Origin: Cupriavidus pauculus | Lineage (GTDB): Bacteria > Pseudomonadota > Gammaproteobacteria > Burkholderiales > Burkholderiaceae | Reading direction: 5' to 3' | Length of the DNA stretch: 64,000 nucleotides | Assembly: GCF_002858765.1 (NCBI RefSeq) | Contig: NZ_PJRP01000023.1 | Span: 1-64,000 of the forward strand | Part shown: positions 49,205-64,000 of the stretch, in pieces | Position numbering within the stretch: position 1 is the first letter of the stretch | Layout: every line of letters begins with the position of its first letter | The notes under the pieces: generated by a model | What the model was told of the DNA's origin: nothing | Databases searched by the model: none | Seen by the model: only the letters and a program-made list of their open reading frames with translations | Position numbers and translations under genes: made by a program

Positions 49205-49870
49205 CTATGCAAGCACGCTGGCCAGTCTTTCCGCGATCTCGCCTACACTACCGACGCCCTGAACGCTGCGGAACAGTGGAGGCGCCATATTGGATGGTGC
49301 GTCGCTTTCTGCCCCCCAGGCCAAGTAGTAATCCACCAATGGTCGCGTCTGTTGCGAATAGACGTCCAGGCGCTTGCGCACGATCTCTTCCTTGTCGTCT
49401 TCGCGCTGAATTAGTGCGTCCCCGGTTTCGTCATCGACGTTCTCGACCTTAGGCGGGTTGTAGGCTATGTGGTAGGTACGGCCCGATGCCACATGCACGC
49501 GTCGGCCACTCATGCGCTGGACGATGGTGTCGAACGGTACGTCAATTTCTAGCACGTAGTCGATGGCTACGCCGGCTTCCTTCATAGCCTCGGCCTGCGG
49601 AATCGTGCGCGGGAATCCATCGAACAAGTAGCCATTTTCGCAGTCGGCCTGCTTAAGGCGGTCTTTCACCAGGCCGATAATGATGTCATCCGACACTAGT
49701 CCTCCCGCGTCCATCACCTTCTTGGCTTCGATGCCCAGCGGCGTACCAGCCTTCACCGCGGCGCGCAGCATGTCGCCGGTGGAGATTTGCGGAATGCCGA
49801 ACTTCTCGCAAAGGAACTTGGCTTGCGTGCCTTTACCGGCACCAGGCGCACCCAACAAAACAAATCGCAT
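49205..49870 (-). CDS. adk: Adenylate kinase
   Basis: A 221-residue adenylate kinase, 2 ADP = ATP + AMP. P-loop [10 protein letters not shown] at residues 7-16, G-F-P-R-T core, and a long-type LID with G-R-R-V-H-V then V-D-D-E-T-G-D. All key Arg residues of the family appear present. AAGGA lies 7 bases before the ATG at 49870. It lies 60 bases after xdhC at the end of the Mo-hydroxylase cluster. A second adk beside a CoA-ligase pathway could recycle the AMP made by the ligase; whether the genome has another adk cannot be seen. Confidence 0.9.
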
Positions 49871-49930
49871 TCGAAATCCTTGAACTTGAGGAAAGCAAAA
49901 ATCCAATGGAGCGCTCAATGAGCGCCACAA

Positions 49931-50950
49931 CTACCTGCTGACGCTGCAACTCATCCCATCTGCGATGACCTGCTTTCCGCCAGCCGTCCGCATCGCATCG
50001 GGCAACGCGACCCCATTCTTTGCAGCAGTAAGCTCGGCCAGAATGGAGATGGCGATTTCAGGGGGCGTCTTACTCCCGATGAACAGGCCAATCGGACCGC
50101 GGAGCTTCGCTACCTGCGCATCGCTGACGTCGAACTCCTTGAGGCGCTCTCGTCGTCGAGCACTGTTGAGCCGAGACCCAATAGCGCCGACATAGAAAGC
50201 CGGCGATTTCAGGGCTTCCATCAGCGCGAGATCGTCCAACTTGGGGTCGTGCGTGAGCGCAATAACCGCGCTCCTATGATCAAGCTCCATATCAATCACC
50301 AAGTCGTCCGGCATGGCATGGATGACCTCGACCGCGTCGACCTGCCAGCCATCCCGGTATTCTTCCCGTGGATCGCAAACGCTGACGTCATAGTCCATCG
50401 CTACCGCGATTCTCGCGAGAAACTGCGACAACTGCCCTGCACCGATGATCAGAAGCCTCCAGCGTGGGCCGTGAACTGTCGTCAACACGTCGCCGGCGAG
50501 CGTCAATGCCATCGAGGCTGTTGCCGGCTCGAGCGAGACCGCCCCCGTCGCGATGTTCACCCGCCTTGCTACCAGATAGCGGTTGGCAAGACGGGCCAGC
50601 AGCGGCCCCATCCACCAGGCTCCAACAAGAGGCTCCACGGCCAACTGGATCGTGCCGCCGCACGGCAGCCCGAACCGATGCGCCTCGTCACCCGTGACGC
50701 CGTAGGTCACGATCTCTGGCCGGGTACGCGTAATGCCCTCCCGCCGTACCCGGTCAATCAGTTCATCCTCGATACATCCCCCAGAGACCGAGCCAACGAC
50801 CCGCCCATCATCGCGAATCGCAAGCATTGCTCCCTCAGGACGTGGACTCGATCCCCAAGTCCTGATGACGGTTACCAGTTCGCACGCGCGTCCACTGTCA
50901 GCCCATTGCTGACATGCTCTCAACACGTCGATGTCGATGCTTTCCATCAT
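49931..50950 (-). CDS. XdhC/CoxI-family molybdenum hydroxylase maturation protein
   Basis: A 339-residue protein with N-terminal XdhC-CoxI domain (R-T-W-G-S-S-P-R-P-E-G, G-S-V-S-G-G-C-I-E, residues about 20-95) and C-terminal Rossmann-like XdhC domain (I-I-G-A-G-Q-L, and G-A-I-G-S-R-L near residue 257). XdhC proteins bind molybdenum cofactor, help its sulfuration and insert it into xanthine-dehydrogenase-family enzymes. The Mo hydroxylase large subunit encoded at 57915-60335 is the evident client. Confidence 0.9.
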   Translation of the reverse strand: MMESIDIDVLRACQQWADSGRACELVTVIRTWGSSPRPEGAMLAIRDDGRVVGSVSGGCIEDELIDRVRREGITRTRPEIVTYGVTGDEAHRFGLPCGGTIQLAVEPLVGAWWMGPLLARLANRYLVARRVNIATGAVSLEPATASMALTLAGDVLTTVHGPRWRLLIIGAGQLSQFLARIAVAMDYDVSVCDPREEYRDGWQVDAVEVIHAMPDDLVIDMELDHRSAVIALTHDPKLDDLALMEALKSPAFYVGAIGSRLNSARRRERLKEFDVSDAQVAKLRGPIGLFIGSKTPPEIAISILAELTAAKNGVALPDAMRTAGGKQVIADGMSCSVSR

Positions 50951-62501: not shown

Positions 62502-62512
62502 TTCAGTTCTCG

Positions 62513-64000
62513 TCAGCGGCCCTGGAACTTCGGCTCGCGCCGCGCGGCAAATGCCTCACGACCTTCGCGATAGTCGTCACTACCCGCTGCTGCCGCGATC
62601 ATCGCCTCGGCGCGCGCCAGATCCAAGCCGCTCGTGCTTCCGACCATTCCGTTGAGTTGGTACTTGGCGCCTGCCATGCTCAGCGGCGCATTGACCGTGA
62701 GCGAGGAGGCAAAGGCTCTCGCATCGGCCATCGGATCCCCGCCCTGTGCTGGCCGCGCTTTGGCGCCGATCAGTCGCTCCCAGAAGGAGAGTGCGGGCTT
62801 GTCGTTTTCCAGGCCGGCGACGCGATCCACGAATCCGATGCTGAGAGCCTTCGTAGCATCGAAGCGTTGCGCGCCGTACAGAATCATCTTCGCTTGGGAT
62901 ACCCCAACAAGGGACAAAAGTTTGCGCGTTCCCTTCACACCATAGATGATCGAGAGGCGGGCAGCAGGGATGCCAAACATCGCATCGGCAGCAGCGAAGC
63001 GGAAATCGCAGGACATTGCCAGATGCGCACCGCCGCCCAGACAATAGCCCCGCAGCACCGCAATGGTGGGCTTCGAGATCTTGGTAATCGCATCACAGCA
63101 AGCGTCTACCGCCACCTCATAGGCCGTCGCCTGCGCAACATCGGAACGCACCTTCTCAAACTCCGCGATGTCAGCGCCTGCGCAGAAGTCCTTTTCTGCA
63201 CCGGTGATCAGCACAGCTCGAACCTCCGGATTCCTGTCCAGGGCGGCGAGAATGGTCGGGATTGCCAGCCACATCGCGTACGTCATCGCGTTGCGGCTCT
63301 TTGGGCGATTGAGGGTTACCACAGCGATCTGGTCGGAGATCCAAACCTTGATCTTTTCCGACGTCAAAACATCCATCACTGCAGCTTGGTGTGCAGCAGG
63401 GCTCGGCGCAGCCTCCTGCGAGTGGGGCGTTGGCGCGCTTTTCGCTGGAGCGGCCGAAGCAGGCGACTCATCCGCAGCGCGGTGCGCCGCACCATGCGAT
63501 TCCACTGCAGCACTCGCGGTGGCAGCGTGGTTCGCAGCGGAGGCCACCGACTCGGCGGATTCCGCTGCAGGCGCCCCGGCTACCAGCTCGTTGATATCAA
63601 AAGACGCCCCGTTGGCGGGAGCCGCCTTCTCCGCCCGAGAATTAACCTGCTTGCCGAACAGATCGAAGAAGTCGTCAGCCGATTTTCGGGCGGCGGCATC
63701 AATCATGCGTGAGCCGAGCTGTGCCAGCTTCCCGCCCACGTTAGCCTTGACGCCGTACCGGAGCATCGTGACGGTCGGCTCAAGCGCGTCGAGCGAAACT
63801 TCAATATCCGCCTTGGCAAATCCTGCTGCGCCGCCGGACCCTTCTCCGGTCAGGGTATAGCTTTTGGGAGGCACCATGTTGGACAGGGAGACCTTACCGG
63901 CAAAGCGTGCTTTGATCGGACCGACTTTTGAAATGACCGTTGCCGTGAACTCGTTATCAGCGGTCCGCTCGAGCGACTCGCATCCAGGGATGCTCGCTTG
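62513..64000 (-). CDS. CoxG-like SRPBCC domain fused to a crotonase (partial, cut by window edge)
   Basis: The frame is open to base 64000, so the N-terminus is missing; 495 residues are visible. Visible residues 1-119 are the C-terminal part of a CoxG-like SRPBCC protein (C-E-S-L-E, S-K-V-G-P-I-K-A-R-F, then the Y-T-L-T-G-E-G-S-G-G core). CoxG helps Mo-hydroxylase maturation or membrane attachment. A 90-residue Ala/Ser-rich linker follows. Residues 209-495 are a crotonase domain close to the protein at 24108-24935; both usual catalytic Glu are replaced (G-G-G-A-H and I-P-A-A-R). A start at 63877 would cut the SRPBCC fold and is rejected. Confidence 0.9.
   Translation of the reverse strand, partial: QASIPGCESLERTADNEFTATVISKVGPIKARFAGKVSLSNMVPPKSYTLTGEGSGGAAGFAKADIEVSLDALEPTVTMLRYGVKANVGGKLAQLGSRMIDAAARKSADDFFDLFGKQVNSRAEKAAPANGASFDINELVAGAPAAESAESVASAANHAATASAAVESHGAAHRAADESPASAAPAKSAPTPHSQEAAPSPAAHQAAVMDVLTSEKIKVWISDQIAVVTLNRPKSRNAMTYAMWLAIPTILAALDRNPEVRAVLITGAEKDFCAGADIAEFEKVRSDVAQATAYEVAVDACCDAITKISKPTIAVLRGYCLGGGAHLAMSCDFRFAAADAMFGIPAARLSIIYGVKGTRKLLSLVGVSQAKMILYGAQRFDATKALSIGFVDRVAGLENDKPALSFWERLIGAKARPAQGGDPMADARAFASSLTVNAPLSMAGAKYQLNGMVGSTSGLDLARAEAMIAAAAGSDDYREGREAFAARREPKFQGR

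Follow-up and report, generated by a model that had tools for sequence, protein, structure and literature searches.

A rare, conserved molybdenum-hydroxylase operon of Cupriavidus pauculus with a probable role in degrading a furan-like acid to a four-carbon product

The closest described counterpart of the genes considered here is the HmfABCDE pathway of furoyl-coenzyme A (CoA) degradation, which likewise combines a CoA ligase, a three-subunit molybdenum hydroxylase, a crotonase-family protein, a CoxG domain, an XdhC protein and a transporter of the major facilitator superfamily (MFS). For hmf itself, lactone hydrolysis was still without an assigned gene in 2019 (PMC6678421), while Table 2 of a 2025 paper lists hyd as a putative 5-hydroxy-2-furoyl-CoA hydrolase (PMC12064950), so that this gap is no longer quite open. 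The BlcABC/AttKLM pathway for gamma-butyrolactone offers another likeness, with its metallo-beta-lactamase-fold (MBL) lactonase, iron alcohol dehydrogenase and succinate-semialdehyde dehydrogenase (SSADH), and quinoline 2-oxidoreductase (PDB 1t3q) is the closest solved large subunit; to our knowledge, no CoA ligase is known alongside the latter. Here we describe a run of genes at the end of a 64,000-nucleotide stretch of the C. pauculus genome (7.4 Mb in 38 contigs), hereafter the window (G000:C16:1-64000), which belongs to a rare conserved gene set that probably degrades a furan-like ring acid to a four-carbon (C4) compound. The new points are the C4 end and a core protein of the short-chain dehydrogenase (SDR) fold devoid of the catalytic tetrad. 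All genes of the run are on the minus strand, and positions above 64000 are contig positions outside the window.

A query of the genome collection with the large subunit of the hydroxylase gave 34 loci, 28 of them of the window's kind. These were combined with the window, nine fetched plasmids and one further genome into a set of 39 loci, for which the gene presence thresholds were of our own choosing. Loci with a large subunit at most 44% identical (L037, L038, L040, L042, L043 and L044) were excluded. Nine of the 19 plasmid records carrying the cluster were fetched and counted (L057-L060, L062, L070-L073), while L064-L067 and L069 were set aside as repeats (of L011, L012, L036, L013 and L021). 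Apart from the large subunit, present in all 39 loci by selection, the core comprises the SDR-fold protein (38 loci), the iron-sulfur subunit (37), the FAD subunit (36), the MBL hydrolase (32), the acyl-CoA ligase (30), the crotonase (26) and CoxG (25); several of these absences coincide with contig ends, and the FAD subunit of L029 narrowly failed to reach the threshold. The loci span beta- and alphaproteobacteria and rhizobial plasmids, and their carriers include Cupriavidus numazuensis LMG 26411 (L011), Cupriavidus sp. LEh25 (L012), Burkholderia sp. IMCC1007 (L013) and Aminobacter sp. SS-2016 (L057). An SDR match at E 1e-65 was found in three of 60 genomes from the genus and in five of 349 from the family; at E 1e-60, two of 398 genomes from the phylum had one. 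Each of these counts includes the genome of the window. Of 371 genomes from the order to which G658 belongs, only G658 matched, and it had been preselected for having the cluster. Among 72,556 plasmid records, 19 matched the SDR (E up to 1e-50), from Rhizobium, Sinorhizobium, Agrobacterium, Bradyrhizobium and Aminobacter, and the same 19 headed the large-subunit search at 55-59% identity, the next following at 42% among the best 30 of 398 matches. The SDR thus travels with the molybdenum enzyme. A gene block found in 39 loci is not a matter of chance, and the operon is rare, scattered and conserved.

As far as sequence tells, the likeness to hmf is one of enzyme class, with the parts assembled from other subfamilies. 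The hmf reference was an operon on plasmid p2 of C. pinatubonensis (L061; large subunit, FAD subunit, Fe-S subunit, AMP ligase, crotonase, MFS transporter and XdhC), identified by its gene order from the published hmf description (PMC6678421) and not by the published C. basilensis proteins. In a quick tree of 52 large subunits, in which published C. basilensis HmfA (ADE20399.1) and 4-hydroxybenzoyl-CoA reductase were not among the rows, the window's protein falls in a 27-row clade and the HmfA homologues in a separate 6-row clade (support 100 each), and orthology to hmf was rejected on these grounds. Near copies or fragments (L012, L017, L019, L033, L034, L036 and L044) were omitted from the tree, as were L038 and L042, for which the open reading frame (ORF) caller gave no large subunit. 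Identity of the ligase with Hmf-type ligases of loci from metagenome-assembled genomes (MAGs) is 27-29%, and that of the crotonase with the HmfE homologue of L061 is 29% (25-29% across Hmf-type proteins). No HmfA was found in the window's genome, in which the L061 HmfA matches best to the large subunit of the operon described here (38%). A prior interpretation of this DNA, hereafter the sequence-only reading, had equated the core with the hmf set, which holds for the enzyme classes but not for orthology. The arrangement of domains also differs, as CoxG is attached to the crotonase or separate in window-type loci and is part of the large subunit in hmf; the C-terminus of the L061 HmfA homologue matches CoxG at 35% identity. 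The HmfA-type large subunits at L061:8929-11967 and L025:2088-5033, which have this C-terminal domain, measure 981-1012 amino acids over their full length. Further differences are the MBL lactonase and the tetrad-less SDR, both additional to the hmf set, a crotonase devoid of two glutamates that Hmf-type crotonases retain (5/5 aligned), and an apparent C4 end instead of 2-oxoglutarate. In L025 an alpha/beta hydrolase gene stands ahead of HmfA; it may be of the hyd kind, its place being taken in the window operon by the MBL protein.

The most distinctive member of the core is the SDR-fold protein (57158..57910; Pfam adh_short_C2). In every one of the 38 loci with this gene the whole catalytic tetrad is gone: Asn has given way to Cys, Gly or Ser, Ser to Gly, Tyr to Gly, Ala, Thr or Val, and Lys to Arg, the window's protein reading C-G-G-R at these positions. 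In contrast, the SDR of the unrelated locus L042 retains all four residues, and three other SDRs on the window's contig retain Tyr and Lys. Asp154, Ser155, Arg157 and Glu160 are kept in all 38 loci, and Gly153, Asp154, Ser155, Arg157, Gly159, Glu160 and Arg170 are invariant in a 20-row alignment; the conserved stretch GDS[SA]R[VI]GE stands where the tetrad residues were lost. The structure model has a FabG fold (pLDDT 87; TM score of about 0.9 against structures of FabG) in which the loop at 155-159 is predicted poorly, and a structural match gives about 41% identity to 3osu, so that the protein resembles FabG-type dehydrogenases in fold and overall sequence but differs from them in all four catalytic residues. 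With the tetrad lost, the protein is unlikely to act as an oxidoreductase in the usual way, while conservation and linkage to the large subunit argue against a dead protein. Our guess is a non-redox step on the hydroxylated CoA ester.

A comparable loss is seen in the crotonase domain of the CoxG-crotonase fusion (521 amino acids; 62513..64000 in the window, with the start at contig position 64078; Pfam COXG and ECH_1). Nineteen cluster members from the 26 loci having a crotonase were aligned (16 and three in two alignments), and both hydratase glutamates are gone in every one, one being replaced by His and the other by Ala or Ser. The window's protein has His and Ala, and thereby lacks the two catalytic glutamates of an enoyl-CoA hydratase, as the sequence-only reading had noted for this gene. 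The active site of methylmalonyl-CoA decarboxylase includes a Tyr and a His. A Tyr of the crotonase aligns with a Tyr of E. coli ScpB, while the His of the ScpB stretch SAGHD is an Ala. An assignment to this enzyme was not adopted, as it rests on one aligned Tyr, the match to HmfE (103 bits) exceeds that to the E. coli decarboxylase (91 bits), and the crotonase is missing in 13 of the 39 loci.

The genes of the lower pathway point to a C4 compound. The SSADH (53996..55522) exceeds two curated cut-offs (PRK11241, 848 vs 828; TIGR01780, 746 vs 646 bits) and is present in 13 of the 39 loci; in two further loci such a dehydrogenase is annotated where the stretch is cut off, and four plasmid stretches stop short of its expected position. 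Beyond the window end follow a hotdog thioesterase (64112-64549) and an iron alcohol dehydrogenase (64546-65697), found in 22 and 20 loci respectively. None of these three genes was found in the fetched stretches of L035 or of Bradyrhizobium elkanii plasmid pK07G, where a close relative of 4-hydroxybutyryl-CoA dehydratase, an enzyme with no counterpart among the window's genes, adjoins the core instead. The gene of L035 stands directly after the ligase, and its protein matches PDB 6vjr (vinylacetyl-CoA delta-isomerase; E 3.9e-218) and 1u8v (gamma-aminobutyrate metabolism dehydratase/isomerase; E 3.3e-156), with HpaB monooxygenases far behind. It is the sole copy in its genome at E 1e-100, 11 of the 12 genomes searched having none, and the pK07G protein is 63% identical to it and differently positioned. 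An HpaB-like gene of L021 was ruled out as such a dehydratase (23% identity). Two unlike C4-consuming modules joined to one core suggest that the product of the upper pathway is 4-hydroxybutyryl-CoA or succinate semialdehyde. The pathway thus looks to end in a C4 compound and not in 2-oxoglutarate, which is at odds with the 2-oxoglutaryl-CoA end point of the sequence-only reading.

The hydroxylase itself is composed of the molybdenum-binding large subunit (57915..60335; Pfam MoCoBD_1/2; start picked by us inside ORF 57915-60449), a 2Fe-2S subunit (61105..61653; Pfam Fer2 and Fer2_2; start picked inside ORF 61105-61749) and a FAD subunit (61623..62501; Pfam FAD_binding_5 and CO_deh_flav_C), and is accompanied by an XdhC-type molybdenum cofactor insertion protein (49931..50950; Pfam XdhC_C and XdhC_CoxI). 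Alignment predicts a molybdenum site with a hydroxylase-type loop and Glu, the Glu of GMGE being kept and AYACSFR of CO dehydrogenase replaced by PYRGVGR; identity with CO dehydrogenase was ruled out by the missing active-site Cys and by the group 5 model (594 bits vs a cut-off of 950). A family search for 4-hydroxybenzoyl-CoA reductase was uninformative, with no hit in 143 genomes and also none in 14 controls. The lactonase-like MBL hydrolase (60328..61089) has the HxHxDH zinc motif intact, as have 19/19 aligned cluster members; its best NCBIfam model is AttM (143 bits vs a cut-off of 390), and its nearest PDB relatives are acyl-homoserine lactone lactonases. In CO dehydrogenase systems CoxG is described as a membrane protein that binds quinone (PMC13240472), and CoxG homologues are argued to serve as membrane anchors without electron transfer, a 3-hydroxypyridine dehydrogenase being cited as a further example (PMC11962113); either role fits the operon. 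The AMP-forming acyl-CoA ligase (55538..57094; Pfam AMP-binding and AMP-binding_C) completes the core.

Taken together, our best explanation, with a probability of roughly 0.45, is an operon degrading a heteroaromatic acid to a C4 compound, the acid likely being a five-carbon 3-substituted one such as furan-3-carboxylate. The general frame of this explanation is likely, while furan-3-carboxylate as the substrate is tentative. The sequences themselves establish which genes are present and conserved, the C4-type lower modules and the residues lost from the SDR and the crotonase; the substrate, the succession of reactions and the parts played by these two proteins are inferred. The acid would be taken up via the MFS transporter or a Liv-type ATP-binding cassette (ABC) system and converted to its CoA ester by the AMP-forming ligase, the AMP being recycled by a second adenylate kinase. 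The XdhC-matured hydroxylase, with CoxG as partner on the membrane or quinone side, would then hydroxylate the ring carbon beside the heteroatom to give an enol lactone, whose opening by the MBL lactonase would leave the CoA ester with a carboxylate and an aldehyde group. One carbon would be lost as CO2, through the glutamate-less crotonase or the tetrad-less SDR. The thioesterase would then release the C4 product (4-oxobutyryl-CoA or 4-hydroxybutyryl-CoA), the iron alcohol dehydrogenase would adjust it, and SSADH would oxidise it to succinate; the two relatives with a dehydratase-type gene would seemingly route 4-hydroxybutyryl-CoA to crotonyl-CoA instead. Furan-3-carboxylate is named on chemical grounds: C2 hydroxylation and lactone hydrolysis of a 3-carboxylated furan would give a substituted malonyl-CoA and, upon decarboxylation, 4-oxobutyryl-CoA, whereas the same chemistry would lead from 2-furoate to 2-oxoglutaryl-CoA. 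A still more specific version is slightly more doubtful than the substrate itself: 3-furoyl-CoA hydroxylated by a subfamily other than HmfABC, a dedicated MBL lactonase, and an SDR catalysing a non-redox tautomerisation or decarboxylation to the C4 CoA ester, with GDS[SA]R[VI]GE and an Arg as active site. The furan link is favoured by the homologues of HmfA (five loci) or HmfD/HmfE (seven) beside some of the 39 loci. An aromatic acyl-CoA logic is suggested by a BoxR-like regulator (66164-67180; helix-turn-helix and shikimate kinase domains; 408 bits vs a cut-off of 204), yet this gene occurs in only three of the 39 loci. BoxR-like regulators sense benzoyl-CoA. No report of bacterial furan-3-carboxylate genes was found among the literature matches listed, subscription papers lying outside the search; Koenig and Andreesen are said to have described growth of Paracoccus denitrificans MK33 on furan-3-carboxylate in 1991. 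In outline, the sequence-only reading is likely right in proposing a molybdenum-hydroxylase pathway that depends on CoA esters, has a lactonase-type MBL protein among its own operon genes and serves an acid different from 2-furoate.

Several observations weigh against this explanation, and some of them favour other ones. The dehydratase link consists of two independent loci, in which no reductase is obvious for reaching 4-hydroxybutyryl-CoA, as the SDR lacks its tetrad. In the stretches at hand, some of them cut short, 17 of the 39 loci are without the thioesterase and 19 without the alcohol dehydrogenase, and many, Hmf-linked ones included, show neither C4 module. The 13 loci without crotonase, some truncated, include the dehydratase locus L035, which makes the crotonase unlikely as a general carbon-losing enzyme. 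Moreover, in L025, L027, L031 and L032 HmfABCDE homologues directly precede the window-type FAD, Fe-S and large subunits and SDR, with a single ligase, not of the window type, and no MBL gene, and L026 has the same order from HmfB on, cut by the contig end; a stand-alone 3-furoate pathway fails to explain these five loci. They would fit a hydroxylase and SDR module acting in series with HmfABCDE on one substrate, the separate clusters being derived, but 32 of the 39 loci have no Hmf gene in the stretch examined (some are cut short) and L041 carries both ligases, so that such a module is rather improbable. The two-hydroxylase arrangement is found in alphaproteobacterial MAGs, L041 having the opposite order. 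The true hmf pathway, in which 2-furoyl-CoA would be hydroxylated at C5, opened and hydrolysed to 2-oxoglutarate, draws on the same enzyme classes, and hmf-type clusters also come with an MFS and an XdhC-family gene (L061; PMC12064950, Table 2). Against it stand the separate large-subunit clades, the low identities of ligase and crotonase, the occurrence of both modules side by side in some loci, and a 2-oxoglutarate end that needs neither SSADH nor 4-hydroxybutyryl-CoA dehydratase, which together make it very improbable.

The molybdenum enzyme raises a different objection. The window clade joins quinoline 2-oxidoreductase and L037 (support 94, long branches), 1t3q is the closest PDB chain to the large subunit (546 bits), although on a distant branch, and the best models of the FAD and Fe-S subunits are of glyceraldehyde dehydrogenase, below cut-off, so that an N-heterocycle or an aldehyde is possible as substrate. 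The sequence-only reading had held that a grouping with oxidoreductases not using CoA esters would refute it; the placement nearer to quinoline 2-oxidoreductase touches this point, but a CoA-free substrate is not thereby demonstrated. An N-heteroaromatic acid (pyridine, pyrrole or similar), with the MBL protein opening a lactam or a later-formed lactone, would agree with this placement, and in five of the 39 loci one or more genes for a DUF2848 protein, an HpaB-like oxygenase, a flavin reductase or a cupin lie nearby. Burkholderia sp. IMCC1007 (L013) uses fusaric acid as carbon source, for which its authors point to nic genes (PMC10293998); fusaric acid was rejected as substrate, no gene of the cluster being named for it in the accessible part of that paper. 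The core genes include no amidohydrolase, the best relatives of the MBL protein are lactonases, and a pyridine acid with a C4 end leaves carbons unaccounted for, so that we regard an N-heteroaromatic acid as unlikely. Slightly less probable is a CoA-free route, in which an aldehyde oxidoreductase, or oxidation of a cyclic ether to a lactone, would be followed by opening of a gamma-lactone as by BlcC/AttM, with the ligase acting on 4-hydroxybutyrate. The glyceraldehyde dehydrogenase scores and the AttM model agree with it, as does the pairing of iron alcohol dehydrogenase and SSADH, which we take to be reminiscent of the Blc/Att pathway. Relative to Blc/Att, the window-type operon adds the molybdenum hydroxylase, CoA ligase, crotonase, thioesterase and SDR. 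However, a ligase and a thioesterase around 4-hydroxybutyrate would be futile in SSADH loci, and the crotonase and the BoxR-like regulator are left unexplained.

The thirteen genes named in the window (49205-64000) were all confirmed as a same-direction run, and every one of them matches a Pfam or NCBIfam model of the class assigned to it. Ten of their 12 junctions are overlaps or gaps of at most 63 nt, the exceptions lying between SSADH and the PaaY-like gene (125 nt) and between the UbiC-like and MFS genes (353 nt), as the sequence-only reading had described in general terms; these figures depend on start codons of our choice. The run extends about 5.75 kb beyond the window end to a total of 18 genes, with 13 of 17 junctions of this kind and the remaining four of 289, 466, 125 and 353 nt, and includes a Liv-type ABC substrate-binding protein (67170-68387) and a regulator with two HxlR domains (68677-69750). 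The accessory genes in the window are an adenylate kinase (49205..49870; NF001379, 357 vs 268 bits; start picked by us), an aromatic-acid-type MFS transporter (50987..52366; TIGR00895, 392 bits, under the cut-off of 418.55), a UbiC-like protein of chorismate lyase fold (52720..53310; Pfam Chor_lyase, 59.5 vs 23.6 bits; NCBIfam chorismate lyase 52.5 bits, under the cut-off of 191) and a PaaY-like hexapeptide protein (53346..53870; TIGR02287, 218 bits, under the cut-off of 319.6). Among the 39 loci the UbiC-like gene occurs in five, the PaaY-like in seven, and the adenylate kinase and this MFS transporter in the window's locus only. Being so rare, these four genes say little about the substrate. 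The sequence-only reading had taken the UbiC-like and PaaY-like genes, together with those of the SDR and SSADH, as pointing to a related but different acid; the SDR, in contrast, is part of the core. The adenylate kinase is a second genomic copy, 82% identical to the one at G000:C1:830329-830988, whose match was flagged with one stop codon. Adjoining the distal end of the operon, at 45619-47787, a LysR regulator diverges from an old-yellow-enzyme family gene, with no evident link. Near the operon of an Agrobacterium plasmid lies a beta-hydroxyaspartate (bhc) gene cluster (L059:20385-25768), and subsets of HpaB-like oxygenase, flavin reductase, DUF2848, cupin and amidase genes adjoin the cluster in L021 (15342-19981), L024 (8436-10171), L028, L030 and L041, possibly as an upper pathway for a related compound.

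The presence of the cluster on plasmids of several rhizobia suggests that the compound may be met in the rhizosphere. Esters of 3-furoate are reported from Maytenus (Celastraceae), which is not a legume (PMC8347511). As the cluster is carried by named environmental strains, growth tests would be direct. If the proposed pathway is true, these genes would constitute a second route for a furan-type acid, with a lactonase coded in its own operon, and the SDR would represent a dehydrogenase fold rebuilt for other chemistry.

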